Shown here: positions 524 through 42,172 of the stretch, one piece after another
Layout of the letters: each line of letters starts with the position of its first letter
How positions within the stretch are numbered: the stretch's first letter is position 1
DNA from: Capitulum mitella
Taxonomy: Eukaryota > Arthropoda > Thecostraca > Pollicipedomorpha > Pollicipedidae
Assembly: GCA_030062745.1 (NCBI GenBank)
Contig: CP099846.1
Coordinates: 7,685,432-7,749,431, forward strand
Direction of reading: 5' to 3'
Length of the DNA stretch: 64,000 bases
The notes under the pieces: generated by a model
Told to the model about the DNA's origin: nothing
The model's database searches: none
Seen by the model: only the letters and a program-made list of their open reading frames with translations
Made by a program: the position numbers and the translations under genes

Positions 524-3500
524 CTGGCGACAGCCGCGGCGGCGTCGGCGCACTGGTCGGATCGAGGCCGTGGAACATTCATGGTGGTGTTACATCGTAA
601 AGGCATTTTGCTCTTGACTTCTTTAGGCTCTGTCAGTGACATAAGAAGTGTCAAGTCGCTTGACACCACTGAGGCCAATAGTGAAGGGCAATTAAGTTTA
701 TGGTAAAATCTACCTGGTTGCATAAAATGAAAAACCGCGCGTGATGTAAAAAAATAGCAGTCCATGGTGATGTCATACCCAAGAGGGAAGCACTGTCCGT
801 GGACTAAAATGGTGTGTCTCAGTAGGTTCCACTAGAGTCCCTGTTGTCAAAAGTGACTAAGATTACTCTTGGTCTTGTTAACGATTTGAGAGTGCACCAG
901 CCTACTGGTCGTCGTAAGACCATCACACCGCCGCGTTTTGACCAAGCAGCCGGGGCCACAGAACGGTGCCGCAGCTGCGTTTCGTAGCACAAAGCCATGC
1001 CTCCTTGCTGTCGCAGACTCTACAGTCTCGTCCGGCCAAATGGAGTCCCTAATCATCGCACAGTCAGGTCAAAAGCTCCGGCCAGTTGCGGCAGGGTCTG
1101 GACAGGACACCACGGCGCCTCGCGGCTGCAGATGCCGGCCGGCCGTACCTCCTGGTTGTCGTACAGCTGAGTGGCGCCCCCGTCTGGGGACAGGCCGCCG
1201 GCCGCCCCCGCGCCGGCCGCCCACGACAGGTCCGGGTAGGCGTAGTGCAGGCAGAGCGGCTGGCCAGCCTGCAGGTAGCACGGCTCGGTGGCGCGATCCT
1301 GCAGAATCGTGGCCTCGTAGTAGGCCGCCGGCAGCAGGGCGAAGTAGTCCTGTCGGAGCGCCGAGCGGCCGTCAGTCCGGACAGGCCCCGCACACAGACA
1401 GACACACCCGTCATAATTCAGCTTCAATGCGGGAATAATACACTGACACTACTGGTGTTTTCCATGCTCGGGTTCCTGAGAGTCAAAATCGCTTTTAAAC
1501 GCTAAAATTTCGGAAATTTGGAACAATAGCATTTACATGGGGCCATTTGGCTTTGCTCTTTATGTCTATCGCCCACCTAAAGGCATGGTGTCACGATCGA
1601 GATTCGTGAAATCGCAATCGCAAAAAGCAAGTCGAATAACAAGATCACCTACGAATAAGAGCAATACGAATTCGAATGAATTCTGGTTCTGCGTGGACCG
1701 ACGTCTTCAGTGGGAGTACACCCAGCCCGTAGAGCTGGTGCGGTCGTGCTGTCTCACCAGTCGGAGTCCCTCGATCTCGTTCTGGACGGTGATTGTCCAG
1801 CGGCCCGGGTTAAGCACCAGCGGCGCGGGCAGGTCTCCAGCCGTGCCGGACACCGTCACCAGCGCTGGCTCGCGGCTAGGCTCGAACCGAACCTGTCGCA
1901 GCCAGAAAACAGATGTCACTAGTGCTGCTCAGCAAAGCAACATTCGACCGCGGCGGCGGTTATTCACTAAAAATGAAGCCAGTAACTTGCTCACACAAAA
2001 CATCAAAGTATCGGAAAGCATTACACACCAATATAGTTAGTATTTAACGCGTCAGAAGGCAGAGAACGCCACAGGTTCCACAGACTAGTTAACCACATCA
2101 CATACGTAGCAAAAGCAGTCAGCTGGAACTTAACTGGCTGAAATGCAGTACTTGTTGCTTTTTACGGCAATCGACGAAGAGTGTAGTTGGATGACACTAG
2201 GGCAGATTGACGCTGTGTTTCAGTCACAACTTTTAATTGCTTAATAGCTACGTAAACAAGAATCAAGCAGCAGGAACACAGCTACCGTGGCAGCGCTCGC
2301 ACCTTGACGTTCTGCGGGATATCCAGCGGATTCTCGGGTGTCATCTGGACGTCGCCGATGATGGGAGACGGCATCGGGTTCACGTAGCGCATCACCAGCC
2401 GGTACAGGGACGGCTTCTCCACCCAGATGTCGTGGATGATCTCCCTCTGAAAATCCCACCATCGGTCACATCCATGACCCCCTGCTCCAGTTATCCTTGC
2501 ACCATCCATATCGTGTCCAAAACGAAAACCGAGCCTCTTGTCTGCACCTCACTTTGGAGATCTTGCAGCGGCGTTTGAGAGACTGATCGGGAGCACAAAA
2601 CCTTCATGAAGACAGGCTCGATACAAGCAGGCAAAGATCACGGCGTACTCGACAGTTACCTCGCCTGCAGCAGTGAGACGGTTGTAATGTAACAGTGATT
2701 TCGCCTGCAGCGGTGAGACGGTCGTAATGTGACAGTGATCTCACCTGCAGCGGTGAGAAGACGGCGTAGCCGCGCCAGCTGTATCCGGGGAACTCGCGCT
2801 CGTCGTAGCCGAACCGGACCGCAGAGTTGGCCGGCGTCCGTCCGTCCTCCGCCTCGTACTGGCACACAAACAGGTCAGGTCAGGTCAGGTCAGGTCAAGG
2901 TACGACAGGTCAGAGCAGGGCAGGGCAGGGCAGGGCAGGGCAGGCCAGGGCAAGCCAGGCCAGAGCAGGCCAGGCCAGGCCAGGCCAGGTCAGGTCGGGG
3001 CAGGCCAGGTCAGGTAAAGTCAGCCAGACCAGGTGAAGTCATGCCAGTACAGGCAGGCCAGGCCAAGGTAAGGTAAACTACAGTAAGGCGCAGGAGGATA
3101 GAGCATGGTAGGATAGAATGCGGCAGGGCAAACCACGGCGGAGCAGGGCAGGGCACGATAGGGTAGGATGGGGGAAGAGTAGAGGAGGGTAAGGAATACC
3201 AGGGAAAGGTAGAGAAACTCAGGACCAGATTATCACAGTCCGTATGCCACTTCAGAAGATCGTCGTCACTGAACTTGAGCCATGATCTTGAAGTTAAGAT
3301 GGATCCACGCGCCACAGTGAAGGCGTACAGCCCGTGGCGCATTAATGTCTGGTACAGGTCAGGGGAGACGTTCGGCGAACACAATACGGAATCTGGATTG
3401 AACCCGTGGCACGCTGGACTGGCGCCATCTAGGACAATGGTGCAGATAACACATGACATAACAGAGCCGGTGTAGGAGACGCAGTACCTTGTACTGGTGC

Positions 3501-6500
3501 AGGTCGGGGAAATAATGTAGCTGGAGCGGCTCCTTGCAGCTGGGTCCAGTCACGCGCGGGCGGCAGGCACACTGGCCTGTGTATTTGTCGCAGAAGTCGT
3601 TGATGGCGCCACCGATGTCACAGTTGCACGCTGGAAAGTGGAAGGCGAGTTGCGGCGTTCTGCGTGTTTAGTTATCGTAGTTGCACTCAGCTGGTTAGCT
3701 GTGACGCAAGAATCCTCCACGGAGATTACCGCTGTGGGATTACTCTCTGTGTATCGATCATAAATTAACTGCGTGAGAAATTTCTGCTTACCGTAGTAAT
3801 TGGTAGGCCAGCATTAGCAAAAGTGGAGCAGAATAAAGATGAGCATGCCCGAACGCAGACAGATCAGACTCCTTTTAAATATTAGTCCTGCTGTTGTCTA
3901 GCGCGTTTACCTCCGTCACACACCAGATAAGCAGGTAGGCTTCTGAGGTAGCCATAATTCCGAACGACGAATGGGTGGCAGCGGCAAATTAGGCTTCTTT
4001 TTGTCAGACCACTTGGCTTTCAGCAGTCAGTCGCCAGCCAAGATCGCGGTGGTTCCCAAACTGCACTCACTCTCGCAGCCCAGCAGGTTTTCGGCGGTGA
4101 GTCGGTACGAGCCGAGACTGCACTCCTGACACTGGCGTGAGGTCACGTGAGCCTTGCACGGACACTGGCCGCTCTCGGTGTCGCACACCCGCACACCTCC
4201 CACCGTGCCGGACGGGTTACAGTCGCAGTCTGTCGGCGGGAGGCGAAGTCATCTGAAGCACGAACACTCGGCAGCCGACTGGGCTGCTCACATGAAGCCC
4301 GCATTTTGTTATGATGTTGCCAATACCAGCAGCGAAGAAATTTCCCTCATTTTATTGGGATGACCTTCAAATGAGCAACGCTTGGTCCAGTAGCTGTAAC
4401 AGCCTCAGGACTTCATAGATATATTCGTAGACATATAGGCACAATACGTTAATATTTGCAGATAAAATAATGCATCACATGGGACTACGAATGCTATATT
4501 GTGCTTCAAAACTTCCAACAACAGAGGCAAAAACAATCATGGAGCTCGAATGAAACCGTATTAGTTTCACGACACTTATACCGTATTTCCAGTTTTGAAT
4601 TGAGACATTTTGGACGGGTAAAAAAGAATAAGAAGTCCATCATCACATCCGTCACGCGGTCGTGATCGCGCAACACACAGCTGGTCACGTGATCCAGACC
4701 ATCCGATCGCTCATTGGATCGTATGGCAAGACCTCTACAGTGCGGGGAAGGTCACGTGGCCGGACCGGGCCGTACCTTCGCAGCCGTCCGGGTTCAGCAG
4801 CTGCAGGTTCCAGAACAGCGGCCGACACGTGTCGCAGATACGGCCCGTCACGTGCGCCTTACACTCGCACAGCTCGCCCAGATGTTCCAGCGCGCCGCAG
4901 CCGGCGAACGATGACGTCACGCCGGCCGGGTCACAGTTACAGCCTGCCGGGGACAGTCAGGTCCACAGTTACAGCCTGCCAGGGGGGGGGGGGGTCAGGG
5001 TCAAAGTTATAGCCTGCCGGGGAGGGTCAAGGTCAGAGTTACAACCTGCCAGGAAGGGTCAGGGTCACAGCTACAGCCTGCCGGGGAGGGTCAGGGTCAC
5101 AGTCACAGCCTGCCGGGTAGGGTTAGGGTCGCGGTTACAGCCTGCCCGAGACGGTCAGGGTCACAGCTGCACCCCAGGTAAAGGTCACAGATCCGTCCCA
5201 CGGTTACTGTTGCTGCCGCGGAGACAGAGTCAGTTCAGAACGCGAAACATTGTCAGATGGCCGTAATTCATCGTTAGCCCAGCATAAGACAGCTACGTAC
5301 GGAGACTTCTACGAAATCCGATTTGAAAGCAGACAACAGTTTACAAACGATTAGCTCGTAATTGCCTTAAGTTTCATTATCAGTGAACGGTTGCGTTGAA
5401 ATTAAAATGCAGAATACCGTCGTTTTCGTCAGCGGCAACAAAAAATCCGGGAAGATATTGGTCATTGCCTATTACAAACCGATATTCGAAACGCCTTTAT
5501 GGTCGCAGCTTCAGAGAAAAGTGCATCAAACGTCGGGCGTAGGCCCAAGTAAAGAACACAACGTCTCACCTTCGCAGAGCGGGAAGTTGTAGAAGTTTTC
5601 GCGGCACATGTCACACTTGTCTCCGTCAAAGTTGGGCTTGCACTGGCATGTTCCGTCGCCGTTGCAGGACAGACCGATGGAGCCGGAGGGGTCGCAGTTG
5701 CAAGCTGCCGTGACAAGGGTGTTGATCGACTGCCAGGCCACCCGAAGATGCAGCAGTACACAAAGTCCACATGGCAGAAACAAAAACCTGGCATGTATTT
5801 CGACTTTCCGACCGCCGAACATTTCTGTAACATTATTATCCTCTCCAGCAATCCCAGAAACTTATACATGGATATTCCTTTCATCTGACGGCCATCGTCT
5901 GAAGGCCAGACGAAGGTAAGGCCTACCCATCGTTTGTTCGGGGTCATGACTTGTGCTGGAGATATGAACGTTCTGTTCGTCACCAATCGGAATTTATGAA
6001 ACAAAAGACAAAAATTACCAGACGGCCCCTAACCACTCGTGAGACACCTTTCAGGTAAGCTTTCCACAATTCCACAAAGACACCCGAATCTGCGGCTTGA
6101 CCCGGTGTCGACGCATCGAACTGCACTCACGCAGGCACTCTGGGAAGTTGTAGTATCCGGGACTGCACTGGTCGCACTGTTGGCCGGAGAAGCTGGACAG
6201 ACAGGAGCACTTGCCCACGGCGCTGCACGACGTCGACGTGCTGCCGTCCACGTAGCCTGGGGACGGTGACGTCGCCGAGGTTATCCACAGTCACAATCGT
6301 GTGCATTACATACGGAAAATCGTAAGAACAGTCTGAATGCACACTTAACATCAGCTAACGGTCGCCGTCACAGCTGTGCAATTCGAAAGCGGTACCGGGA
6401 AAACATTTTTTTGCTTTCAATACCCTTCAGGGACTGTGAACGTGATTATCGGACTCAGCCGGCAGTTAGGACAAGTAACAACTATATAAAGTCCTGTTTA

Positions 6501-9500
6501 GATTTTAATGTGCGGATCCAGTAGTAAGGACGCGATACCGATTAATGTGGCCATGTTCGGCCACGGGCCCCGCAGTTTGAGACATCTTCCATTGCAGAGG
6601 TGCTCTGGCTTCTGAGTGATAGCTGTTAGGAACAACAACCACACGAAACTCGCGAGAGCTGCTGTTATCAGGTTCATAACAATGGCTCCAACGTTGGCGA
6701 TGCACACTCCCGCGCACACGCGCTTCTGATGGCACATATTGTCCCAGCGTTGCGGTGACACAGTGGCGGGAGGATGGTCATCTGTGAGAGGTGCGCTTCC
6801 TGCCGAGGGCGGCCGGCGCCGCCGCGGCGACCACTCACAGTCGCAGAGGCCGACAGTTGGGGTAGCCGAAGAAGCCAGAGGCGCACTGGTCGCACAGCTC
6901 GCCGCCGAAGCCTTCCCGACACTGGCAGACGCCCAGCTCCTTGTCGCAGATGCCGGGCTCCGTGCCGGAGCTGTCACAGTTGCAGTCTGCGGGCACCGAG
7001 CGACGGTCCAGACTGGGGCGAGTCAGAACCGATCCAGACTGGGGCGGACTAGACGTGATCCAGACTGGAGCTGGCCGGAACTGGTCCCGACTGAGGTGAA
7101 TCATTACTGCTCCAGACTGAGACAGAATTGATCAGGACTGGGGTGATTCAGGGGCAACAGATCAGTGGTTGCAAAGTCATCGGGCCCGACCCAGACTACC
7201 GACGTAGAGAGCCAGTACCAGTAGCCCTAATTAGAGTCGAAACGGCTAAACAGTAATCTAAAGGATGAAGCAAAATCGCAGCTTCTTGATCACAAGGACG
7301 AGGCCTAGTTTTTCCAAGTCAGACGGAAAGACGGTGCCAGAGGCTGAACTGATGTAAAGACATACAAAAAAGGTGCAACACTTCATGAATTATCACAGTA
7401 CAAATGCCACGACTGCCGTCAGTCATATACGAGTGGCAAAGGGAAAGCAAAGAACCATTACACTCACTTCTAGTCATCTAACATCATCCCCGCAACACTA
7501 CAATTGGAATAGCAATCAATTTTTTTTTACTTTTAAGGCTACTAATGCCAGCACGCCGATACAGCGAAGAGAATTATTCGCGCGTCTTAGGAAAATTTCT
7601 AAACCCAATACCATTCAGAACAGCTTCACACATACAACAAATGTCTGTGGACCGGCACCAACACAGGAACGGTATTTAAAAACGCACACGAAGTCCGAGC
7701 GGCCTTCCACAGTTTCCGCCGTCTGAACAGACCGGGGACATGTCGGCCCTAAAACTGGCGCCCGCCCGGCGCGGGCCTCACAGTCGCAGTCGGGGTAGCC
7801 GAAGTAGCCGTCCTGGCACTGGTCGCACTGGCGGCCGCCGAAGTTGGAGAGGCAATCGCACTGGCCGCCGTCCACGGCACAGACGTCCACCGGCGCGCCG
7901 GCCTCGGACACCGAGCCCACCGCGTTACACTCGCACGCTGCCGGGCAGAAGAGAGGGACAGGTGACGCCCGTCCCAGACCCCGCGCACCAGCTGCCGTCT
8001 CCGGCCAGTGGGCAGTGTAGGAGGCGTGAGATGGCATCACCCTGGAGAGCGTGCATAATTTAAAAAATTATGTATATATGTATGTAAAAAATAATAAAAT
8101 CGAACTTTTAGGTATATGTTCATAACAAATTGCGAACGCATGAACCAGGAAATATCCTAGGCATTAATCAGGGGCGTATCGCGCCAGAACATCAACCACA
8201 CTGTCACGACAGAAAAAAACAACGAAAAGAATATCTCATTTGTAAAACCAAACATTACACCAGTTCACATGCATTATGCTTGAGCTCACGTTCGCATGCC
8301 GGGAAGTTGAAGAAGCCTGGTGCGCATCTGTCGCAGTTCTGTCCCTCGAAGTTGGGCTTGCAGGGACACTGGCCGCCGCCAACCTCGCACACGTTGGCCC
8401 GCGTGCCATTCTGAAGCAGCAGCAGGCGCTCGGTATACGGGAGCACAGCCAGTTTCAACGCAATGCGTTTACGGACGACCTAAATGACAACGCACCGCAC
8501 ATCACGCCGGAGAAAATATGCTTCCTTACTCCCATGCCCGTGTTAGAGATTTCATTCACGACGCGGATACAGCGGAGGCGCATTAAGTCATCAGCGTAGT
8601 GCCAGAAAAGGATTTCGCGGCACTGAAACACGTGATAATTCTGCGAGAAAGTTGCTATTTACGCCTGGCACTAACACTGTCCTGAAGCTTTCGTTCGTTG
8701 CTGCGTTGGTGGAGACAATGCAAAACAGGCCCAGAACGGCTACAGTTTCCGCTACGACAAAAGCCTCCCCCTCCCCCTCCGGCCCGGGGATCCGTACCAG
8801 GTTACAGTCGCAGGGCCGGCAGTCCGGGTAGCCGTAGAAGCCGAAGCTGCAGTCGTCGCAGTTGGGCGGCTGGAACTCGGGCCGACACTCGCACTGGCCC
8901 GTGCCCTCGGCGCAGTTGCCGGTCGAGTAGTAGACGCCGCAGTCGCACTCTGCGGTCGCCGACAGAGGTCAGCAGCGGCGCAGCGTCACGGCAGTCACGA
9001 GACGGGTCACAAAATGAGCCGCCGTGTGTCAGCGCAGTCACACTCTACGGTCACCAACAGAAATCACCAGGGGAACAGAGTACCGATGCAGTCACCAGCC
9101 GCGTCACGAACAGGGAGATGAGTGCCGTTTTAGTCATGCGCTGTCTCACAAATAGGGGCATCAGTGTCGTTTCCGTCACGAACTACGTCACGGGCGGGGG
9201 CGCCGAATGTCAGCTCAGCCCCGAACGGCGTCACGCACAGGGGCGCCGAGTGTGACTTCCGTCATGAGCTGTCATGAACAGAGGCTATCATAGTCACATA
9301 GTCATGCGACACTGTTGTTATATTCTGGACCAACAATCATGTTTGTGTCCTGGAAGTCACAGGGGCTGTCAAACCGTACCTATGTGCAGGACACCGCAGC
9401 ATAAAAACTGCACTCCGGAACTGCTTACTGGACGCGGGTCACCAAACACGCTGACAGTCACCATGGCCACGGACATGGACTACGCCTCGAACAGGGTGTA

Positions 9501-12500
9501 CAATCAGCGGTCGTCAGAAAATGGTGCATGCCAAAAGGAGTAAAAGTGACGCAAGTGACGCAAATGCACCCATGTCGATAGTCTCCGACGTGCATCGCTG
9601 TCGACAGACAGAGGCAGGCGCCAGCAGGTATCGGCCATCAGAGCGGTCCTGTCCGCTCAGGACAGGCACAGTCGGGGAGTGGGAGGGGGACACGTACGCT
9701 GGCAGACGTTCGGGTCGTCCAGCGGCACGCCGAACGGTCTAAAGTAGCCGTCCTCGCACTGGTCGCAGTTGATGCCGGTCGTGTGGTGCTGGCAATTCTG
9801 GCACACTCCGCCGCCTGGAGGCAAAACGACGCGTTGCACGGGTCCCGCGGCTTCAGGGAGTTCGGCTGGGGATTTCGGGTTCCTTTCCAGGACGCCTGAA
9901 GAACGCTGGGCCACTGAGTTGATTTGCTCAGCCATCTTGTCGGACTTACCTCAAAATGAAGGTGACCCCGATTTCAGCTTCGAGAGAGCTCGGTTGAACA
10001 TATCTTTAAGTGGAACGTGTTTAATACCTAATGCTGCAAGCATGACTCAGTCACGTAGCCAAGATTTTCCTCAGGGGGCCAAATGTCAAATTTTGTCATA
10101 TGGCCCAGGCATATGACGAAATTTACAAAAAAGGCAGCAGTTTAGGCAATTTATCTGGCATTTAATGCACAGAACATAGAATGTTTGCTTTTGCAACATA
10201 AACCTGACCACTATCGCGTATTCAAGCAACATCGCCATGTATCTAGTGCAGACCGCTTGGCTCGGGGGGGGGGCCAGGGCCCCCATGCCCCCCCTCGGCT
10301 ACGTCCCTGGCATGACTAAACATTGTTAACGACAAACACATTTCCTTTAACCAGTTTCAGAGCAAGTACCATTCCCAATTATGCGAAAACGGTATTCCTC
10401 CCCAATAACATGAGTTTCTGTCGCTCTGATCTGGGCCAACAACTTTACACTAAATCCCCACTCCCTTGCTCCATCTGCCCGTGTTCTCCTGGAGCCTGAC
10501 GAGACCCACCTTCGTAGTTGCCGTGCATGTCCAGAGAGAGGCCCTGGGCCTCCACTTCCTCGCTATACTCGCACTCGTTCGAGTGTCCGTGACAGTTGCA
10601 GGCTGCAACGCACCGCACAGACACAGATCAGCGAGTGAACATGGAGAACGGACCTGGCCGCGGCCGTTTACGGCCCATGACTCGTGCGTTGAGCCCGCTC
10701 GTTCCAGAACGGCATCCGAATACTTAGTTGAAGGAAACGTGGCGACAATTAACGGCGTTAAAAGTAAGCACTAACGTCCATATAGAGAGACATTGATGTT
10801 AATCTCACGCAGAAATAAATGTGTTGGTATAAAAAGGGCCTTCGGAGCAGCTTCCGATGCTGAAATGCCGGCATAAGCTTATAACAACGCAGTCTAAAAG
10901 CGTAATGAAACTTTTTCATTCGCTTTATTGTTCTACTAAGACAGCAGACCAGATGAATAAATGAAAAAAAACGCGTATCATTTGAAGGTAATGTAAAAGG
11001 GCGTATCATTTGCAGGTAATGGAAAAACACCCTAGCACCACTTATAGTGCCCCTTACTACATCAGAATTAGTACTATAATTTCCGTAGAGGAGGGCACGG
11101 GGTTTTACTCACGTTCGCATTCGAAGGAGTCGGTGTAAGTGGCTGGCTTTCCACTTTTTCTGGACGAACGGCGGACAGCAGACCTCACACTGCGGTCCGC
11201 AGGTGTTGTGCTGGCAGCGGCAGAGCAGGCGGTACTGGTCCTCGGCAGACGGGTCGCACAGGTCGGCGTGACCGTTACACACGCACCGGCCGCCCACGCT
11301 GATGTCCTTGATCGAGTAGAAGTACTGAAAGTCGCCGCCAGATGTCAGTAGTTAAAGTGCGGAATGGCACAGTAGGTGTCGCCAGGGGTGACGACGGCGG
11401 TGCGGAGGCTGCAGTTGAGCGCTTGCGGATTGTGACCCGACGGGGACTGTTCTTGTTACTGATAGGAGCGCGTCCCACCCCTGTCCATGGGAATGAAACA
11501 CAAGCAAAGCAGCAACAAAGTCATGGGTTTCAATTTCAAGTTTTACAACGTGTCGACTGATGGACCATTTAGTTCTGGTGGACATGCACTGAGAGGAACC
11601 TCATTGTCATTATTCGGCACGCTCATTGTTTGTGAAGATTACCCGGACTGAAGGCTGTCCGTCACCCGTGTAACGCCATCCATAACAAGGCACCACAGCC
11701 GCAACGGGGCTCATCTGGCGACGGCTCCTCATCATCCGGCCGCGCAGCACTGGCCAATCCCCCCCCCCCCCCCACCACCGGCCCGGTGACGGTGGGGACC
11801 TGCTGCCGCTCAGCACCACTGCAGCGACTCACCCGCCGGGTGACGGTGGGCACCTGCTGCGCCACCGACATCAGGTGGCCGAGCAGCGTCTTGGCGCGCA
11901 GCAGGCGCAGCCGGATGTTGGTGGCGCGCGTCCACTCGCGCAGCACGGACGAGTTGTAGAAGTTGTCCTTGGACGGCCGCCCGTTCAGCAGGGAGTAGGG
12001 GATCTGCGGCCGCCGGGGAAAGTCAGCGCGGGCGGTCACCGCGCGGGCGGGGCTCAGTCCGCGCGTGGCCAACAGAGAGAAACGTTGGCGGGTCACGGAT
12101 GTGAGTGCCCCAAGATGTATCTGATGGGTTTTTAATGTCTGCCAGCTTTGAGCGGGTTGGTAGAAACTTGGCATTGTCGGCTTGGATTTGTTCGGGGTGA
12201 TACAGGGCCCACGTGTCGCAAGCCTCGTACACAGACAAATTAAATTATAGGCCACCGTGGCATTGACGCTGTATAGTACGGTACGCAACTTCCATTTTGT
12301 TTTCCGGAAAGCCTCGAAGAAGATAGTTTAACTCCATTTAAAAGAGTGCATATCACAGGTGGTACTAACCCGTATTACACTAAACATATCTAAACCGTGG
12401 ATTTTTTCTTTCTTCCAGTTTTTTTGTGGGGAACAAATCAAAACTACCAACAGGAGTGTTAACAAGACCAGTTCCCGTGGATTGTGCCTGTAATTCTGCA

Positions 12501-15500: not shown

Positions 15501-18500
15501 AACAAATGGCGCGGGCGCGAAACACCACGTAATAGAAATATTTGCTTAAAACAAGCCTCGACCTGAAGATCTAAGATTTTGAAATATGTCTCCTGTTCCA
15601 GGTTCGGATGCATCTAAGCAAACTAGAAAAACCAAAATATTGTAAAATGTACAGAAGGGGCTGTTAGATGGTACTCATTATGCTGTCTTCTCTGTGCGCG
15701 TGAAGTCCTATGTAACCGAAAAGAGACAACGCTTAAAACGATGCATGACCAACAAAATAATAAAAGCTCCATCACATGATATTTTACATCTTCTTTGTCA
15801 GTGTTATTTGTCCTTTCGCCATGATCCTATTTTACGACGACCCTGTTACAGCCGACGACTGTTTTATGATGTATGGTGACTCGAGTCTAGCGATCCACTT
15901 ATACGGATGATTTATCCATAAACCGAAACTGAAACCGACGACTCTCCGCATTCACTGTAAGTTTTAAGGATTCTTCATTCGGCCGCGCACCAAACAAAGA
16001 GCAGCAAACCGACGAGCTTCATGTCGACGGTTTCGACGCGAATTGCCGCATGATAACGCAACGGTATTTCTACTCAGTTGTTAAATAAAGTTTTTTCGTA
16101 CATGCGTTAGTAAAGGGGTCGGTCTACACGATAAAAGGTCAAAATATTGTGACAATGTGTCGGAAATATTCATGATTTTTATAACATCAAACGACACTTT
16201 TCTTCAAGTACATAAAAAAAAAACGTAACACAGTGATGTGAATATTTGCGTACGAATTGCCATTTTAAGAGGCATTTCCGGCATGAGTCGTCTGTTTGAG
16301 ATAAACAGAGTGTAATTAACCTCCCGAACAGCATATTAAATATGGCAAACGCGGTATTAGACGTCTTCAATACGCATTTGTATATCTTCAAGTCCGCTGA
16401 GCACTGCTGCCATGAAATGCGACCTTGAGCGGCCTGCCATCAGTAGAGCGACTGCCGCCAGCTGTGTAACCCGAGACGTGCCGTCGGCGGCGGAGTCCAC
16501 CCTTCCTTCCCCTCTCTCCAGTGGAGACCACCCTGCCGGCAACAGACGCCGGCCAGCGGCAGGTCCAGGGTTACGGAAGGGGGAGCGGTGTTGGTAATGA
16601 GCATCTCGAGCTGCGGTGGTTTCACGGAAGCCGGGAGGAAGAGGGTCCGGGTCCGCCTCTGGCGGCGAGGGGATGTGCGTGGGGAGGGGGGAACAGATGC
16701 GGGCTGCTGCCGCCGCTCGAGAGGCTGGCAGCGGCGACAGGGAGGCGCCGTTACCGGGCCGAGCTCCGGCCGGACACAGCCGGGCCGGAAACCGCCGGAG
16801 ATACGGCACAGCGACGGCGGCTGACCGACGGACGGAACGACGGACGGAACGACGGACGAACCGACCGACCGACCGACCAACCCACCGACGGACCGACCGA
16901 CGGGCCGACGGGCCGACGGGCCGACCGACCGACCGACCGACCGACCGACGGAGCGACGGACCGTCGTGATCAGAAAGGTTTAATCTGCGGCACTGATAGT
17001 CAGACATGCGACTTGGCTGGCTCGGAATTACGCAGTGGAGGAATCCAGGCAGCTGCATTGACTAAAGCGAAGCTCGGAGCAGGAGGCAACCTGATTCGGG
17101 TGGCTCTCATTTTGACCTAATTCGGATGGGGACACTGTGTAAAGGTGGTCCATTCCTCAACAGTTTGCCGTACCTTATTATCATAAGTTACTAAGTATGT
17201 GCGCAGAGCAATATGGGGCACGGCACGTTCAGTTTCCCTTTTTGATGAGATCGCTGACCGTTATCCAGCACCCGTGTCCGGCGGCCAGCCACCACCCACG
17301 GCCGTCGGAGTCCCCTTCCCCCCGTGGCTCTGCGTCGCTGACTGACCTGGCCGAGGTCGAGAGTGACGTTGACCTCGTTGTAGGCGCTGCCGCGGGACAA
17401 GGGCGGAGACTGCCACCACCTCTCCGAGCCGTCGATGGCGTATTCCGGCGGGTGAGCCCGCTCTGGGTCACTGGGGTCACAGTAGTCGCACACCTGCGGT
17501 CACAAACAGGTCACCATGGAGGTCACTGGGATCACGCTTGCGGACAGGCATGTCATCAACGGCGGTCACTGGGGTCACGGTAGCAAAATCCTGGTAAGGA
17601 AAAGTCGTCACTTGGTGCGTCGTTTGCAAAAAGACTCGCGCCAAAAGGCACGTTTACAAGCATTATACTCATCACAAATATTTAATCGATTGCTTTATGT
17701 CCACAGAGGTCCTTCTCCGGTGAATACACACAAATAATCACTGAGGGACACTGGTGGTTTGGAGTTATGCCTTTGCGGGTGCAGACGGCTAACCAGTGAT
17801 GGTTTCCGACGTCATAGTCTAATATGCGTGACTGACCAATACCGAACCGGCAACATATAATCCTACGAGCCACAAACTGGTAATGGTGCCAGCTGTAAGC
17901 AATCACCTGAATTTTGACGTTTCACATGCATATATTATGAGTCATCAGCCATGATTCTAGACCGAGATAGCTTGAATAGCTTGTAGAGATAGCCTGAGCT
18001 CCTTTGAAAAATGAAGGTACAAGCACAGTATTCGCCTACGGCAGGGCTTCCAAAAATATCTGTGGTGCCCAAGACTTTCACATCATAGGCATTGTTTCGA
18101 ATAAAACCCAGCAAGCGCAATATTACAAAAACAGCATCCTAAACATGCTGTTATTTTATCGTAACTGCAAGGAGTTGCATATTTGACATAATGTGTTTAC
18201 TTGATTACAAGCGAGGCCAAAAGCCCAGTGAGTCATACTTCAACAAGCAGAAAAATGAAATTGAATGCCCCGGCCCGGCCAGACCATAACGTTTTGGAGG
18301 CGAATAACTTCCGATCCAGTGGGCGCGAAATCACGAAATTTCCACCATAAGATGCCTAATTTCTTTGAATTTCCTCCACTTCCATGGGCAATGCATCAAC
18401 CTATAAATTTTTTCTTCCACACGACTATTCCGGCAATAATGTTTTCATTCCTAGACCCATTTTTTCATGCGTATTTTGAACAGCTCAGTAACAGAAACGA

Positions 18501-24575: not shown

Positions 24576-24578
24576 AAA

Positions 24579-24631
<53 letters not shown>

Positions 24632-24667: not shown

Positions 24668-24769
24668 AAAGTAAAAATATTATAAAGATGGCAAAGCGTA
24701 GTTGCAATTTGAAAAATACAAAAAAATAAAAAGCAGTGAAATAAAATATCTCAAAGAAAATCACGGAAC

Positions 24770-25095
24770 AAAACTGGAAAACATTAGGAATAGAAATAAA
24801 ACAGTAAATAAAAATTTACCCTAGCCTAACATAGTAACCAAACCTAACCTAACCTAACCTAACCTAGCCTAGCCTGGCCTAACCTAACCTAACCTAACCT
24901 AACCTTATCTAACCTAGCCCAGCAGAAGAAATCACGGAACAAAACTGGAAAATATTAGGAAGTGAAATAAAACAATAAATAAAAATTTACCCTAGCCTAA
25001 CATAGTAACCAAACCTAACCTAACCTAACCTAACCTAACCTAACCTAACCTAACCTAACCTAACCTAACCTAACCTAACCTAACCTAACCTAGCC
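24770..25095. repeat. Duplicated unit with interstitial telomere-type CCTAA (TTAGG) arrays
   Basis: Two ~165-bp direct copies each start with AATCACGGAACAAAACTGGA, continue ATTTACCCTAGCCTAACATA and end in a CCTAA array (24840-24906 and 25010-25092). TTAGG is the canonical arthropod telomere unit, read here on the minus strand. Confidence 0.93.
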
Positions 25096-25439
25096 CAGCA
25101 CAACCCAACCTAGCAACCTAACCTAACGAGTATTAAATGTCATAATGTAATAATACCGAGATCAGATATCCCAACAATTATCTAATACAATAATATAACG
25201 GCGTAATAATTCAGCAGTTCCTCCAAGTTCAGTCTGTGACAACAGAATAGAATTTTTATTTACATCACGTCATTAATCGCTTGAAGATGCATGCAGGGTC
25301 TACACATCCTTGATGTCAATAACCTTAACCTTGGCGGCACTACATTTTCCGCCGCGGAATAATGTTGTTCTCCGCCAGTCGACTGCAGCACGGTATTACT
25401 GTGTAGTACGTTATCGTTACGATTTTGTTGTTATTTTTT

Positions 25440-27508: not shown

Positions 27509-30500
27509 TCCGTTAACTTAACACACATATTCATATTCGTTTTCAACACACATCGCAGATTTTGCCCAAATTACTCTGTTTGGTCAACCTGTCCATGCCA
27601 TTTCCGAATCTGGAGTTCTTTCTGCCATAAGTCTGACCATTTGACCTCTAGAGGTCAAAAACGCAAATTCAAGATCAACGACATGGACAAGCATGGCCGT
27701 CCACGTATGACATCAAACTGTATAAATAAGACACCAGACCAAAAAGAGGAACCGTCCACAACTTCGACGACCCAAAGGACCAAGGTCAAGGTCCGTCGTC
27801 AAGGTCATAGTTAAAGTCAAAAGACGGGGACAAACATAGCCACCGGTCTTTTGGTATCAAACGGTACAAATCCCGTATCAGACTTAACAGGAGAACAGAC
27901 CGCAACTCTGACGACTTAAAATATCAAGGTCAAGGTCCGTCGTCAAGGTCATAGTCAAGGTCAAAGGATGGGGACGAGCATAGCTGCCGATCTATGGCAC
28001 CAAACTGTACAAATGAGGTATCGTACTACAGAGGGCAGCAATTCGCAATTTTGACGACCAGAAGGGTCAAGGTCAAGATCCGTCGCCAAGGTCTTAACCA
28101 AGGTCAAAGAATGGGGACAGAGTTGCCGCTCAATGGCACCAAATTGTACAAATAAGATATCGTAATAAAGAGGGGAAAATCCGCAACGTTGCTGACCACA
28201 AAGGTCAGTGCCAAGGTCCGTCATCAAGGTCCTAATCAGGGTCAAAAAATGAAGGCAACGATAGCGGCTGGCCTAAGGCACCAGCAGGACAAATGACTTA
28301 TGAAAGCAAAAAGGGATGTGTCCGCGACTTTGACGACCCAAAATTTAAAGTTCATGGTCCGTCGTTAAGGTCCTGATGAAAGTCAAATGACGGCAATAAG
28401 CATGGCCGCCGTGTCATGAAGGTCCTATTCAAGGTCAAGGAATGGAGATGAGCAAAGCCACCGACCTATGACATCAAACAACGGACCTTGGCCTTGATCT
28501 TTTGGGTCGTTAAAGCTGCGAATAGTTTCCGTATTTGCTGTGATGCCTCATTTGTAGAAATGAGTGCCACAAGTTGCTGTCTATGCTCGTCCCCATTGTT
28601 TGACTTTGACTATGACCTTGACGACGGACCTTGGCTTTGAACTTTTTAGTCGTCAAAGTTGCGGACTAGTCTCCTCTTTTGTCTGATACCCCATTTGTAC
28701 AGTTTGGTGCCATAGGGCGGCGACTATGATTGTCCCCGTCCTTTGGCCTTGATGAGGACCTTGATGACGGACGGTGACCTTGACGTTTTTTGTCGTCAAA
28801 GTTGCGAATTGCTACCCTCTTTAGTACGATACCTCAGTTTGGTGCCATAGATCGCTACCTATGCTTGTCCCCATCCTTTAACCTTGACTATGACCTTGAC
28901 GACGGGCCTTGACCTTGACCTTCTGGGTCGTCAAAGTTGGGGCTATTCTCTTCTTTGGTCTGATACCTCATTTGTACAGTTTGGTGTCATAGGACGGCGG
29001 CTATGCTTGTCCTCGTCCTTTGACCTTGATTATGACCCTGACGACGGAACTTGACCTTGATCTTATGGGTTGCCAAAGTTGCGGACTATTCCCCTCGTTA
29101 GTCTGATACCTGATTTGTACACTTTGACGCCATAAGACCGGTGGCTGTGTTTGTCCTCCTTCTTTTGACTTTGACTATGACCTTGACGACGGACCTTGAT
29201 CTTAGCCCTTTGGGTCGTCAAAGTTGCGGACGATTCCTCCTTTGGTTTGGTATCGCATTTGTACAGTCTGATGTCATAGGTGGACGTCTATGTCTGTCGT
29301 TATGAGGCGTTAGATCACTCATGGAGCTAAGCATTTCCCTGCGAAACTTGAGGTGCAGATCAGTGCCGACCAAAGAGAAGAACCGTCCACAACTTTGAGG
29401 ATCCCAAGGATCAAGATCAAGGTCCGCCGTCATGGTCATAATCAAGGTCAAAAGACGGGGACAAACATAGACGCCGACCCTACGGCACCAAACTGTACAA
29501 ATGAGGTATCACACCAGACAGGAGAATAGTCCGCCGTTTTGAAGACCCAAAGGGTCAAGGTCAGGGTCCGTCGTCAAGGCCCTCATCAAGGCCAAAGGAC
29601 AAGCATAGTCGCCGCCCTAGGCACCAAACTGTACAAATGAGATATCTTGGCAAAGAGGGCAGAAATCTGCAACTTTGGCGACTAAAAACGTCAAGGTCAA
29701 GGTCCGTCGTTAAGGTCATAGTCAAGGTCAAAGGATGGGGACAAGCATAGCTGCCGATCTATGGCACCAAACTGTACAAATGAGAAATCAGACTAAAGAA
29801 GAGAGTAATCCGCAACTTTTACGACCCAAAAAGTCATGGTCAAGATCCGTCGTTAAGGTCCTCATCAAGATCAAAGGACGGGGACAAGCATAGCCGCCGC
29901 CCTATGACGCCAAACTGTACAAATGAGGTATCAGACCAAAGAGGAGAATAGTCCGCAACTTTGACGACCCAAAAGGTCAAGGTCAGAGTACGCCGTCAAG
30001 GTCTTAATCAAGGTCGAAGGACGAGAACACGCACAGCTGCCGTTCTATGGCACCAAACGGTACAAATGAGGTGTCGTGATAAAGAGGGCAGCGATGCGCA
30101 ACTTTGACGACCAAAAAGGTCAAGGTCAAGGTCCTAATCAAGGTCAAAGAACGGGACAAACATAGCCGCCGATTACACTCATTTGTACAAATGAGGTATC
30201 GCAGTAAAAACGGAAACTTTTCTCAGCGCTAACGACCCAAAAGATCAAGGCCAAGGTCCGTTGTTTGGTGTCAAAGGTCGGCGGCTCTGCTCATCCCCAT
30301 TCCTTGACCTTGAAAAGGATCTTCACGACAACGTGGCTATGCTTGTTGTCGTCATTTGACCTTTATCAGGACCTTAACGGCGGATCATGAACTTCAAATT
30401 TTGGGTCGTCAAAGTTGCGGACGCATACCCTCTTTGGTTTCATAACTCATTTGTCCTGCTGGTGCCTCAGGCCTGTCGCTATGGTTGTCCCCCTCCTTTG

Positions 30501-31095
30501 ACCTTAATTGTTGCCGTGACGACGGACCTTGACATTGACTTTTTTTGGTCGAAAAAGTTACGGATTTCCTCTTCTTTACTACGATTCCTTATTTGTACAG
30601 TTTGGTACCATAGGGCGCCGACTATGTTTGTCCCCGTCCTTTGACCTTGATTAAGACCTTTACGACGGACCATGACCTTGGCTTTTTGGGTCGCCAAAGT
30701 TGCGGGCTATTCTCCTCTTTGGTCTGATTTCTAAATTTTACAGTTTGGTGCCATGGGGCAGTGGGTATGCTTGTCCCCATCCTTTGACCTCGACTATGGC
30801 CTTGACGACGGACCTTGACCTTGACCTTTTGGGTCATCAAATTTGCGGACTATTCTCCTCTTTAGTATGATACCTCTTTTGTACAGTTTGGTGCCATAGG
30901 TGGACAGCTTTGCTTGTCTCTGTTGTTGGCCTTGAATATGCGTTTTTGACCTCTATAAGTCAAATGGTTAAACTTATGGCAGAAAGAACTCCAGATTCGG
31001 AAACGGCATGGGCAGGTTGGCCAAATAGGGTATTTTGGGCAACACCTATGATGTGTGCTGAATACGAATATAAATATGTGTGCCAAGTTAACGGA
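27509..31095. mobile_element. 3.6-kb foldback-like element with long inverted termini and internal satellite
   Basis: The termini (about 27509-27720 and 30885-31095) are reverse complements over ~200 bp at roughly 80% identity, starting TCCGTTAACTT and sharing CGAATCTGGAGTTCTTTCTG. The inside is ~140-bp repeats with AAGGTCAAGGTCCGTCGTCA and CACCAAACTGTACAAATGAG, arranged forward (27.65-28.48 kb), reverse (28.48-29.27), forward (29.38-30.27), reverse (30.29-30.9). A ~110-bp non-repeat core is at 29275-29385. No protein is encoded. Long, repeat-built inverted termini are known from foldback elements; assignment here is by structure only. Confidence 0.85.
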
Positions 31096-31734: not shown

Positions 31735-31960
31735 GGCACCAGCGGCCGACCGGACCACCCACAGACTCGCAGAACCAGGGCAACAGCTAATACACTGACG
31801 GAGCTCGGGTGCTAGCAGCCAACCGGACCAGCCACAGGCTAGCAGAGCCAGGGCAGGAGATGATACACTGACGGAGCTCCGGTGCCAGCAGACAATCAGG
31901 CCAGAGTCTCGCAGAACCGAGGCAAGAGCTGACACACCAGCGGAGACCGGGCGACGACGG
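31735..31960. repeat. ~75-bp tandem repeat, three copies
   Basis: Diverged copies with CAGCCAACCGGACCAGCCAC and GATACACTGACGGAGCTC. Lies in the 3' flank of the FUN14 gene. Confidence 0.85.
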
Positions 31961-32325
31961 TGGGGGTGGCGAACGGTCCGAGTCTCGCCGGCAAACCGAA
32001 ATCGGCTATCGACGAAGAGCACAGGGCGACGCAAGAGCTGAGCGAACTGAAACGACGCCAGGAACGCCGCGGCCTACCGCTTCGCACGCACGCACAGCAC
32101 ACGACGGACGAGCCCTAAAACAGATCGTCCCGCACGTACGACCGACCCGGCCCCGGGCACGTGAGGTCGCCAACGGGGAGGTCCACACTGCGGCGTACGC
32201 CACTACACGCACTTCCTCTCCCACGGCCGACAGGCGCGGTCACCGCCGGGAGACGCGGCGACTGAGGGGCCGGCGCGCGCGGACCGGCCGCCGCTCCGAC
32301 CAACCTCCGGAGGCGCCGGCGCCGC

Positions 32326-32406
32326 TCACGAGCAGGAGAGCCCGATTAGGAAGCCGCCCGTGAAGCCGGCCGCCACGTACTTGTTCTCGCCGGCGAACTT
32401 CTTCAC
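32326..32406 (-). CDS. FUNDC1: FUNDC1 exon 3 (C-terminal membrane segment and stop)
   Basis: 26 codons plus TGA: VKKFAGENKYVAAGFTGGFL, then IGLSCS. Acceptor GTCCCAG. Confidence 0.93.
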   Translation of the reverse strand: MKKFAGENKYVAAGFTGGFLIGLSCS

Positions 32407-35539: not shown

Positions 35540-35560
35540 CCCTCGAGAAGAGGGCCCCTT
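35540..35560. repeat. Hairpin with GGGCCCTC arms
   Basis: GGGCCCTC-GAGAA-GAGGGCCC: perfect 8-bp arms in otherwise mixed sequence. No function can be assigned. Confidence 0.8.
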
Positions 35561-37617: not shown

Positions 37618-37722
37618 CATAACCTTACCTCACCTTACCTAACCTAACCTAACCTAACCTAAACTAACCTAAGCTAACCTAAGCTAACCTAACCTAACCT
37701 AACCTAACCTAACCTAACCTGT
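37618..37722. repeat. Interstitial CCTAA (TTAGG) array
   Basis: About 20 units, a few diverged to CTTAC or CTAAG; same orientation as the 25-kb arrays. Confidence 0.95.
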
Positions 37723-39211
37723 GCCCACACAACCTGCCTACCATGGCTGTGGCAACCTGATTTGTATGCCTACATCAAAGTGATCACTAAACATATGTTA
37801 AACCAGTTACCATGCATGCTGCAAATTGATTACTATGCCTGTCACAAACTGATTATTGGGCCTACAGGAAACCGGTTAATTTGCCCACAGCAGGCCAATT
37901 ACTGCAGCTACAGTAAATTAATGTCATAAAAAGTGGTTTGTGCTGCAAAGCAGATATGGGCCATGAAACAAGGTGTTCTTTCTTGCTGGTATTTAATTCT
38001 TGCCTTCCCTACTTTTACCTTCATCCTAAGCATTCTGTCCCTTATATCTTACCCATATTGCATGATTGTACACCTACTGCCACTCTGAACCACCTTTTTC
38101 CAGCAGTGTCCCTGTATTGGATACATCTAGTTCCTGGGGAGTATTTCTATGGATTGGGCATTTATTTCTTGTGTGTCACTGGCCATTTAAATGTCATGTG
38201 ACCATGAACACAGTGATTGACACCATCTTTGGCTATACTGGTTTCAGCAGTGAGGAATACTGCTGTTCTGTGTCAGCCAGCTTGAGTAACCCAGTGATGT
38301 GATCATGATATTATTTTGATTCTTTGAGAAAGGATGGTTGTTTTGAATCTGAGAAGAAAGAGCATGAAGTATTTTTTTTTTTAATGGTGGCAATCATACA
38401 AGAGAATTTTGTGTTCTTAGTTAGATATAAATCTTGTAGATATCAGAGACCACACAAATTCTTGGAGATGGCCTGGGATCATTTTTTGTGTTATTTCTCC
38501 CCAAATCCCCTCACTCAGCTGAAGAAACTCTTGGTATGATTGGTTCTGACAGAAATGCCATCTGTAGTAAGTGCTCTTATCTATATGACCTGGAATGCCT
38601 TATCAAAAATATAGTTCTGTAAGGTTTAGTCATCCTTGATTGTTAGGCACAAGCCAATGCTTTTGAAAGATGAATGTTGTGGGGACCAGGCAGGTACAAA
38701 AACTTTTTTTCACAAAAGCATACCTTGATGTTGGTGTTAGACACAATGTAATCATAACTAATTTCCTACTGCATATGGTCACCATTTTCTGGAACAAAAA
38801 TTTGCCATATTCATCCAATGCAATGTTGTGTAGTGCTCCACTGGACTTTATATAACAAGTTATATCACTGGCCAGTATTTGGCACCATTGTCCTGAATAT
38901 TCATGCAGTGATTTGCCACAAAGTCAGCAGACCTTTGTCTTATTGATTTCAGTTAGAAAATAGTTAGGTCTGAAATTTTACTTGTTATGTAGACCACATC
39001 AAGTTGTCTGATCTACATGGGTAGCTTTGATTTCCCTTTGTAGGTTATATTATGTTAAAACTACTGGGATCTGAGTTTGCCATGAATGAGTTTGCCATAA
39101 ATGAAAGAAGAGACTGCTTGGATTGTTATCAATTTATTTTTTTTAAGTGCGGTATAGTTGCGCTGCAGTGTCTCACATAACAGTTGTATGTCTCCACCTG
39201 ACGTCGCAGCG

Positions 39212-40568
39212 ATGCCTGCCGAGGGTGCTGAGCAGACGGCGGCCGACGGGAACGCCTGGCTGGCGGCGCCGCTGGACCAGCTGGCGCGCCACTTCGCCGC
39301 CGGGCTGGCGGCCGGCCGGACCGCCGCCGACGCCGAGCGCGAGGCGGCCGCCGCGCTGACCGAGTTCGCCCGCAGACCGGACGTCTGGCGGCGGCTGCCG
39401 CTGCTGAACGCCGCGCCGGCGCACGCCTGGCGCGCCGGCCGTCTGGCGCGCTTCCGCGGCATGGTGCAGGACATGTTCGACCCGGAGTTCTACCTGCGTG
39501 CGTACGGTGTGCGCGGCCCGGGCGACGCCGTGCGCTCCGGCTGCGGCCGCTACCGGGACGTGGTCGGCTGCGGGCCGGACGAGCGGCTCGAGCCGGCGCT
39601 GGCCGTCACCGGCGACCGGCAGACGCTGCGCTGCGTGTCTGTGCCGGGCCGCACGCCGTGGGTGCGCCGCGCCGAACGGGAGGCCGCGCCGGCCCAGTGG
39701 GCCGACGCCGGCGAGGCCCGGCCGGCGCCGGCGGCGCCCAAACGGCCCCGCGAGGACGACTGCCAAATGGAGGAGGTCGCGCCCGAGGGCGCCGAGGAAG
39801 CCGATAAGAAGTTCAAGGAGGACGCGCCGGCGCAAGCCTCGGATCTGGCGGCGCCTGGGGGCAGGCCAGACCCCGCCGCCGCCGCCGCCGTGACGTCGCC
39901 GCCGGGGACCAACATGCCGCTCCCGGACGACGAGGCCATGGCCTGTCTGGTGAAGATCTACGAGGACGAGCACCAGCTGTCGCTGAACGACGCGGTGGAG
40001 TTCGTGGGCGTGCTGTCGCTGGACCCGACGCTGGCTGCAGCGCCTGCCGACGCCGAGGACGCCATGGAGGCGGACGAGCTGGTGGCGCACCACCCGCCGC
40101 CGTCAGTGGCGCCGCGGCTACACGCCCTGGCCTGGCGCCGGCTAGAGCACAGCAACCCGCTGCTCGGGCCGGAGACGGCGCCGCCGGCCGCGGCCGAGGC
40201 GACCGCCGCTCGCCGCCAGGTGCTGACCGTGCTGGAGACGGCCTTGCTCGGCGACACTCTGGCCGCCGAGCTGCTGCTCTGCCACCTGCTGTCGTCCGTG
40301 TACGCCCGGCACGACGTCATGGCGCTGGGCAAGTTCGCGCTGAACCTGGCCGCGGTGCCGGCCGCCGGCGGCCTGTTCGCCGGCCGACTGTTCGGCCTGT
40401 TGGAGCGGCTGACGGAGAAGGCGCTGCTGGTGCCGGTTTCGCTCGACAACATGAACCGGATGACGCTGGTGCCGCGGAAGGACTACCGGCGTAACGTGCT
40501 GGTGTCGGGCGCGCTCCAGCTCAGCTCCAGCACTCACCTGGTGCTGGACGAGACGGCGCTGACGCAGG
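39212..40568 (+). CDS. MCMBP: MCMBP exon 1
   Basis: 452 codons plus one base; ACGCAGG|GTAGGA donor, phase 1. A CRE-like TGACGTC at 39200-39206 sits 6 bp before the ATG. Confidence 0.94.
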
Positions 40569-42172
40569 GTAGGAGCGCCGTGTCGGCCGGCCGGCCGCTG
40601 GCTCTCGCTGCTCGGCGCGGCCCTGCTGAGTGGTTCTCTTCGCTGTAACAACTAAATAGTCCACTGCTGCAGAGTGCTCTTACCTAATCCGCCTGCGGTG
40701 CTCGTTTGAACCACGAAGAATAGATTTGTCATCGGGACTAATGGTGTCGCGTGGGCCCTGAGCCCACGGTGGCCTAAAGTACGTGATGCGGTGAATGTGT
40801 AGCAGAGTGAGTGTCGTGTTGTTTGACGTGTACAGTTAAACTATGTATTTTTTGCTCGTTTTGTAATGCCGCTGCGGCTGTCGGCAGGCCAACTGGACGA
40901 ACGCGGCGTGAAAAACGTGGCGGCGCTCGGCCACCTCATCACGTGGCAGAAGGTCGAGTACGACTTCGACTTCCACAAGCTGGCCTACACGGCCGACGTG
41001 CCGGTGCTGGTGTTGTCCGAGGGCCGCTCGCTGTTGCCGTGCGACTGCCGCCTGCCGCTGGAGCCTTCCCGGCCGGCCGATCAGCTGGCCGACCAGCACA
41101 ACGCACTGGAGCAGTACCTCACGCCATCTTTGCTGGACCAGATCCGCAGGTACGGTGCCTCGCACTGTCACTGTTGCACCAGATTCCTGGCCTGGCAATT
41201 CCCACTTCCACTGTTCCACCAAACCTTCAGCCTGGTACCTGATACCAGCCCTGCTTCTCCAGGTCTTCAGCTAGACGCCTCATATCTTCACTGTTCCTCC
41301 AGATCCCAAACCAGATACCGCATATTGTCCCTGGTCCACCAGATCTACTGCCAGGTGTCTCGCCTTCAGTGCTCCAGCAGATCCGGCGAGGCGCATGTCT
41401 GTCGATGATACGACGCCATGTATCCGAGGAACTGGGTGGATTCTCCCGTGTTCGGCAGGTACCTGACGTCAGGTGTTTGTGTGTCTGAGGGGACTGTCTT
41501 GTATCCTGTAGGCTCCTGACGTCAGGCTGGCTTCTGTGTGTCTGAGGGGACTGCCCCGTGTTCGGCAGGTACCTGACATCAGGTGTTTGTGTGTCTGAGG
41601 GGACTGTCCTGTGTCCTGTAGGCTCCTGACGTCAGGCTGGCGTCTTTGTGTCTGAGGGGACTGTCCCGTGTTCGGCAGGTACCTGACGCAGGCTGGCGTC
41701 TGTGTGTCTGAGGGGACTGTCCTGTGTCCTGTAGGCTCCAGACGCCAGGCTGGTGTCTGTGTGTTTGAGGGGACTGACCTGTGTCCTGTAGGCTCCAGAC
41801 ATCAGGCTGGTGTCTGTGTGTCTGAGGGGACTGTCCCGTGTTCGGCAGGTACCTGACGCAGGCTGGCGTCTGTGTGTCTGAGGGGACTGTCCCGTGTTCG
41901 GCAGGTACCTGACGCAGGCGCGCCTCCTGCCGTACTCTGTGCCGGAGCGGCTGCAGGCGACCGTGCAGCAGGAGTTCGTCAGCTGGCGGCAGCAGGCCGG
42001 CACACAGGTGAAAGCGGAGGACCTGCACCAGCTGCTGGTGCTGGCCCGGCTGCTCAGTCTGTCTCACGGCCGCACGGAGCTGACCGAGGACGTGTGGCGT
42101 CACGCCCGCCATCTGGAGGAGCAGCGTCGCCAGCGGCTGGACCGACTCGGACCGTCGCCGGTGGCCGCCTGA
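39212..42172 (+). CDS. MCMBP: MCM complex-binding protein (MCMBP), complete, three exons
   Basis: 628-residue nuclear protein (human 642) that binds MCM3-7 and acts in MCM assembly and unloading at replication and in sister-chromatid cohesion (family knowledge). Exons 39212-40568, 40888-41149, 41905-42172; phases 1 and 2 match at joins. Motifs in order: FRGMVQDMFDPEFYL, YRDVVGCGPDE, CVSVPGRTPWV, a charged KRPRED linker, MPLPDDEAMACLVKIYEDE, LLGDTLAAELLLCHLLSSVY, LGKFALNL, GVKNVAALGHLITWQKVEYD, SEGRSLLP, and AEDLHQLLVLARLLSLS. The start was picked because it gives a length like homologues; an in-frame ATG at 39188 is an alternative. Alanine/arginine-rich wording reflects high GC. Intron 2 and the 3' flank are filled by minisatellites made from exon 3's own ends. 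Confidence 0.96.
40888..41149 (+). CDS. MCMBP: MCMBP exon 2
   Basis: 262 bp from TCGGCAG|GCCAAC. Carries GVKNVAALGHLITWQKVEYD and LSEGRSLLPCDCRL. Donor CGCAG|GTACGG, phase 2. Confidence 0.95.
41440..41904. repeat. 53-57-bp minisatellite of copied MCMBP exon-3 acceptors
   Basis: Eight units plus the real junction. The base after AG falls at 41459, 41512, 41569, 41622, 41679, 41735, 41792, 41849 and, for the true exon, 41905. Two unit types occur: TTCGGCAG|GTACCTGACG and TCCTGTAG|GCTCCTGACG, each followed by GTGTGTCTGAGGGGACTGTC. Confidence 0.95.
41905..42172 (+). CDS. MCMBP: MCMBP exon 3 and stop
   Basis: 268 bp from TTCGGCAG|GTACCTG. Carries YLTQARLLPYSVPERLQ and AEDLHQLLVLARLLSLSHG, ends GPSPVAA and TGA. 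Eight look-alike acceptors precede the real one in intron 2. Confidence 0.95.

Follow-up and report, generated by a model that had tools for sequence, protein, structure and literature searches.

The stretch analysed here is a window of 64,000 bp on contig CP099846.1 of Capitulum mitella (C8:7685432-7749431 of a 477-Mb genome in 16 contigs), in which exon borders of two genes are repeatedly found copied in tandem into the adjoining non-coding DNA. Pfam matches within the window place a laminin-alpha gene on the minus strand and an MCMBP gene on the plus strand; these names (including the "alpha" of the laminin chain), like GSK3 used below, are presumptive and are based on Pfam matches and on known relatives. 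The laminin-alpha gene (350-20738, minus strand) was read by hand as exons e1 to e22 (e1 at 20738-20532, e22 at 523-350), and its laminin-EGF matches carry on beyond the left border of the window. MCMBP (39187-42172, plus strand), likewise hand-read, has three coding exons, of which the second and third occupy 40888-41149 and 41905-42172. Its start codon lies near 39187 or 39211 (the masks of our controls used an approximate start, 39192), its first exon ends at 40567 or 40568, the donor thus being placed to within one base, and in the laminin gene the e21 donor is unset and the e22 donor one base off. The exon numbering of a first-pass annotation of the window agrees with these hand-built models.

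That annotation had observed that the DNA beside several exons holds tandem copies of the exon edge, and its statement that they bring the AG|G or AG|GT splice signal along is true of most of the arrays. At the e15 acceptor, about seven copies of a 32-bp unit (4928-5166, minus strand) end within the first 16 bases of the exon, which starts at 4943. The typical unit reads CTGACCCTCCCCGGCAG|GCTGTAGCTGTGACCC, the final unit is the working acceptor with the exon start, and CAG|G is kept in all seven aligned copies, the working one counted. At the e18 donor, 2.7 copies of a 40-bp unit (2652-2758, minus strand) begin in the final bases of the exon (last base 2745) and extend into the intron, giving three junction copies at a 40-bp spacing; the CAG|GT of the working donor is replaced by CAG|GC in both intronic copies. 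In e15 and e18 alike, the highest site score belongs to the working site. The copied e18 donors carry GC for GT, while the copied acceptors in e15 and MCMBP retain AG; this GC possibly reflects selection against copied donors, or chance.

At the e5 donor, two 31-nt copies, 90% identical and 54 bp apart (11776-11860, minus strand), repeat the exon end (last base 11833), and two 49-nt copies, 78% identical and 95 bp apart (8938-9081, minus strand), straddle the e9 acceptor (exon start 8949). The start of e2 (exon 17347-17493) recurs as three copies of a 24-nt stretch (17463-17584, minus strand; 67-100% identity to the reference copy), of which two lie in the intron upstream. This repeat is mostly exon sequence; an AG|G site is present in one of the intronic copies, with a score of 6.2, whereas the working site scores 10.9. 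The end of e1 (20456-20550, minus strand; last exon base 20532) is a weak case, in which an 11-mer recurs in the next intron (p = 0.026). As a separate observation on this gene, e6 (about 11150-11165) and e12 (about 6850-6860) each seemingly hold an extra base relative to the conserved reading frame, as an assembly slip or a real lesion would produce.

In MCMBP, an array with a 53-57-bp unit (41444-41919, plus strand) covers the intron 2 acceptor and ends just inside exon 3 (start 41905). Nine acceptor copies align in it, the working one among them, and four of the intronic copies have the same site score as the working acceptor (11.6). At the stop codon lies an array with a 27-bp unit (42140-43043, plus strand), whose first unit is diverged and consists of the last 30 or so coding bases with the TGA (42170-42172); a unit 170 bp downstream shares 22 of 23 bases with the coding end. 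A diverged copy of the exon-2 donor (41119-41385, plus strand; last exon base 41149) lies about 208 bp into intron 2.

The strength of these copies was assessed by two tests. The exon-only test compared, without gaps, 40 bp of the exon edge with the non-coding DNA beside it over up to 400 bp, against 500 dinucleotide shuffles, and 10 of the 47 window edges reached p<=0.02, where about one is expected. Seven of the 47 also had a score of at least 14: the e2 and e15 acceptors, the e5 and e18 donors, the MCMBP exon-2 donor (score 14, p = 0.008), its exon-3 acceptor and its stop end. The junction-spanning test, based on 20 exon and 25 intron bases, was passed by six of 46 window edges, namely the e5 and e18 donors, the e9 and e15 acceptors, and the exon-3 acceptor and stop end of MCMBP; e1, e2 and the exon-2 donor of MCMBP failed it. 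The tandem copies that had been annotated at e5, e15, e18 and both ends of MCMBP exon 3 are thus borne out by the two tests together. The copy reported for e9 misses the exon-only test (p = 0.12) and stands on its 49-nt repeat across the acceptor and on the junction-spanning test; for e2, the exon-start copies hold in the exon-only test and not in the junction-spanning one, and the e1 case is weak.

Tandem copies therefore lie far above the expectation from base composition, but this is true of the window generally. In the exon-only test with 200 shuffles, p<=0.02 was reached by 15.7% of 1591 non-coding positions across the whole window, and by 8.7% of 275 when the laminin region is taken by itself, and since such positions pass so often, much of the signal represents a general abundance of tandem repeats. 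Moreover, the argument that an ordinary minisatellite would not be expected to start at an exon border is only half right, because selection keeps the exon intact and arrays in introns must stop near it; what stands of this argument is an approximately twofold excess over array ends, as described below. Our array-end control was a non-coding position at which an array ends within the same 40 bp, with no copies in the 100 bp behind. It gave 3.5% of 1881 positions in the window and 2.2% of 315 in the laminin region, against the seven of 47 window edges (p = 0.0012 versus the window rate), an excess that is biased, the window having been picked for showing the pattern. A junction-spanning excess at other loci (9/182 against 13/2285 array-end controls, score >=18) was discarded as an unfair comparison, because the 25 intronic bases may sit in an array forced to end at the exon; plain array coverage (6.1% of 3660) is the proper null for these bases.

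An independent sample of predicted edges comprised 172 exons from 77 sources with 276,470 bp, drawn from kinase, RRM and laminin-EGF loci and from the part of the laminin gene that adjoins the window. The 265 of 344 exon sides that were retained had a usable splice score or a stop codon and 400 bases of flank, and all were predicted by a model trained on the window exons, where it finds 21 of the 22 left sides and 20 of the 22 right ones. Overlapping or near-identical loci (L005, L049, L056, L058 and L064) were removed before counting, and L008, L039 and L060, with a stop inside the match, were dropped in an early count. Strong exon-edge copies, defined by a score >=14 and p<=0.02, were found at 11 of the 265 edges (4.2%) and at 65 of 4318 array-end controls (1.5%), a ratio of 2.8 (locus bootstrap 1.4-4.8). 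The ratio was 1.75 (0.9-2.8) at score >=12, 2.0 (1.0-3.6) against GC-matched array ends (55/2598, 2.1%), with GC-matched lower bounds of 0.8 at score >=16 and 0.9 at score >=18, and 1.8 (0.8-3.4) for internal exons alone. The enrichment at real junctions on which the first-pass annotation had staked its reading thus appears relative to array ends, and it does not appear relative to non-coding positions of any kind, of which 223 of 4633 (4.8%) reach score >=14 and 268 of 2946 (9.1%) do so after GC matching; relative to exon interiors compared with the same flanks (4/184), it is not significant (p = 0.30). At score >=16, copies were found at 8 of 265 edges and 1 of 184 interiors; at p<=0.02 without a score cut, the counts were 17/265 and 10/184.

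By kind of edge, a score >=14 was reached by 9 of 129 acceptors, none of 99 donors and 2 of 37 stops (acceptors against donors, p = 0.006), and p<=0.02 alone by 10, 4 and 3 of them, respectively. Acceptors alone exceed the GC-matched array-end control 3.3-fold (1.6-6.2). Locus L074 was rejected as a boundary case on reading, being a repeat in an open frame, so counts are given with and without it: after dropping L074 and L081, 7 of 127 acceptors remain (ratio 2.6, p = 0.019) and 9 of 263 edges, 1.6-2.3 times the array-end rate, with p from 0.11 (GC-matched rate) to 0.02 (unmatched). When window and sample are pooled, acceptors stand at 12/152 against donors at 3/122 (p = 0.06). These results depend on the sample, which is small and uneven. 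Early counts were without excess (3/106 edges against 78/1168 non-coding positions, p<=0.02); the first 211 edges gave six at score >=14 and the last 54, from the next 13 loci, gave five, while at p<=0.02 the first 211 edges yielded 9/211 against 8/139 for exon interiors. The first part is rich in kinases with the whole domain in one open frame, and pooling of both parts was our choice. The excess of edges over array ends is therefore at most modest, about twofold, and is borne by acceptors and stop codons.

Boundary copies do recur elsewhere in the genome, at four kinase acceptors, one acceptor of an RRM locus and two stop codons. The copy covers 31 of 32 exon bases at the kinase acceptor L036 and 33 of 34 at the predicted exon of the RRM locus L053; the kinase locus L078 has six junction copies, the working one counted; and copies reach the stop codon in L015 (19/19) and L079 (38/40). 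Weaker, diverged matches were seen in L001, L008 and the remainder of the laminin gene. The kinase loci L077 (C9:875400-878900) and L081 (C7:14357100-14360600), which we take to be GSK3-like paralogues, share the exon start CTGTACATGTACCAGCTGTTC. In L077 the unit is near-perfect and 60 bp long, made up of 36 exon and 24 intron bases, and an older copy accompanies it; L081 has a 62-bp unit of related sequence. The two loci align over 345 positions at 89% identity, about 100 of these positions lying in the intron adjoining the exon, and since intron bases align, the intron is older than the paralogue split. Related array units occur in both loci and have turned over since the split, which suggests that such arrays can persist beyond the duplication of the gene that bears them.

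Some other repeats of the window may be recorded here. Runs of (TAACC)n, the pentamer of arthropod-type telomeres, lie at 24835-25127 and 37620-37720, far inside the chromosome. Units of a 143-bp satellite form several arrays at 27755-30918, and their consensus is oppositely oriented in neighbouring blocks.

We consider, with a probability of about 0.75, that the junction-spanning minisatellites are the outcome of ordinary tandem duplication across existing junctions, the outermost copy staying the working site. We infer that a short segment straddling an existing splice junction or stop codon would be tandemly duplicated by slippage or repair, presumably the same process that makes tandem repeats genome-wide, and that this would be tolerated as long as one complete junction beside an intact exon remains and is used. 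The surplus exon-edge copies would turn into intron or 3' flank and then expand and drift as a minisatellite, the expansion being confined to the non-coding side since selection would fix the exonic copy. This explanation agrees with the composition of the units, which combine intron and exon edge in e5, e9, e15, e18 and MCMBP exon 3, and with the frequency of tandem copies in non-coding DNA outside the window (the 223 of 4633 positions given above). An assembly artefact was rejected as the main cause on the evidence of the assembled sequence; the divergence of the copies (78% identity in e9, 90% in e5) and the recurrence of the structure in other loci argue for real arrays. Several observations weigh against ordinary duplication as the whole explanation. 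The excess over array ends is not zero, either before or after GC matching, and the acceptor/donor asymmetry is unpredicted by a purely random process, although it is tempered by the arrays at window donors and by the 4 of 99 sample donors at p<=0.02. The equality of four MCMBP acceptor copies with the working one means that site strength cannot explain the use of the outermost copy, and the units shared by L077 and L081 leave room for array and intron to be equally old there.

The alternative put forward in the first-pass annotation was that a duplicated AGGT-bearing coding segment has made, or is making, introns or alternative splice sites. In the AGGT model of Rogers, an exon segment with AG|GT is duplicated in tandem and an intron arises, its donor and acceptor regions becoming copies of each other. 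Across the 22 introns compared, these two regions agree at 9.1 of 36 positions; in 462 pairings between different introns the figure is 9.5 of 36. This comparison detects recent gain only; the suggested intron gain in progress was rejected on its account, and older gain would have faded from the sequence. Phase 1 is found in ten of the 11 introns that precede laminin e7-e17, the array-bearing ones (e9, e15) sharing this register with their array-free neighbours, and the intron of L077 and L081 is common to two paralogues. All copied acceptors checked (eight in MCMBP, six in e15, one in L077 and five in L078) would cause a frame shift or a stop if used, and use of the two e18 donor copies would add 40 and 80 bases; this check covered MCMBP, e15, e18, L077 and L078. 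In favour of gain or turnover are the AG|G retained by the copies, at full strength in four copies of MCMBP intron 2, and published precedents in amphioxus globins, some novel Drosophila introns and boundary repeats of human segmental duplications. We regard this alternative as very improbable on the whole, splice-site turnover at the copied sites being possible. A mutational bias is somewhat easier to entertain and still improbable: tandem duplications would favour 3' splice sites, for example via splicing- or transcription-linked breaks. The acceptor counts, their 3.3-fold ratio and its persistence without L074 and L081 speak for such a bias. It is opposed by the copies at the e5, e18 and MCMBP exon-2 donors of the window with the pooled p = 0.06, by the 4 of 99 donors against 10 of 129 acceptors when no score cut is made, by exon interiors that are not significantly below edges, and by the fact that edges are predicted rather than annotated and that stops are affected too (2/37). 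The acceptor excess may also result in part from the conserved exon copy, which keeps old duplications recognisable.

Pure coincidence, with random arrays happening to touch exons and no excess at all, is the most serious of these rivals, albeit one that we hold to be unlikely. The rate at edges (4.2%) does not exceed that of unconditioned non-coding positions (4.8%, or 9.1% with GC matching), interiors matched flanks in 4 of 184 cases and equalled edges at p<=0.02 in the first 211 edges, and the bounds for internal exons (0.8-3.4) and for the higher score cuts with GC matching (0.8 and 0.9) include no excess. Coincidence does not easily account for the twofold excess at score >=14, with lower bounds of 1.4 unmatched and 1.0 GC-matched, or for the 8 of 265 edges against 1 of 184 interiors at score >=16. 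Going further than the ordinary duplication that we prefer, one can suppose that 3' splice sites are preferred places of tandem duplication, about one in 14-18 acceptors having a strong self-copy, and that long-lived arrays force an outermost choice among equal acceptors and provide a reservoir for shifts of intron ends; we offer this as a rather doubtful proposition, and a preference for acceptors, though possible, is beyond what the present sample can settle.

Similar structures, called "mirages", are described in two amphioxus papers for the Adh3 and globin genes (PMC3087553, PMC3902484) and for TnC and PGBD5 (PMC3902484). Their units span the exon-intron boundary, measure from ten to about 160 bp, and occur at 5' or 3' boundaries; many copies retain the AG/GT signals and differ in age, and the arrays show length instability with undisturbed splicing (PMC3087553, PMC3902484). 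The boundary-spanning units of e5, e9, e15, e18, MCMBP exon 3, L036, L053, L077, L078 and L081 resemble them, and both boundary types are hit in our window (donors e5 and e18; acceptors e9, e15 and MCMBP exon 3), while the independent sample at score >=14 shows acceptors and stops only. In contrast to the amphioxus cases, the arrays of C. mitella also lie at stop codons and were counted across a sample of edges, and they are known from the sequence of one assembly. Our literature search found "mirage" in this sense in two lancelet papers; it covered the subscription literature thinly, so that absence elsewhere is not implied.

In human segmental-duplication genes, variable internal tandem repeats and minisatellite expansions are reported, some at exon-intron boundaries, and are proposed to activate cryptic splice sites and possibly create novel introns (PMC2812944). 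Those repeats were found by comparison of recent paralogues and lie mostly within exons, whereas ours are intronic and beside intact exons. A tandem-duplication model of intron gain is in print for amphioxus globins, and a Drosophila study discusses novel introns via sliding or tandem duplication in connection with near intron pairs (PMC2891723). Like gain by AG|GT duplication, the arrays of C. mitella involve exon sequence that is repeated in tandem together with splice signals; they differ in that donor and acceptor of one intron are not similar and the copies adjoin existing junctions. Such a gain is reportedly represented by the potato RdRp gene, in which an AG|GT exon segment was duplicated in tandem. 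With ordinary intronic minisatellites they share unit size, divergence and array length, as seen elsewhere in the window; the difference is that the last unit here is the functional exon edge.

Boundary minisatellites are thus real and recurrent here; their kind is already known, and may be new to this lineage. They add a further genome to those of lancelets and to human segmental duplications, at about 4% of 265 edges and 7% of acceptors, and such rates make the feeding of intron sliding or alternative acceptors a testable idea. MCMBP intron 2, where splicing has to use one among five equally scoring acceptors, represents a natural test of the choice of the outermost 3' splice site.

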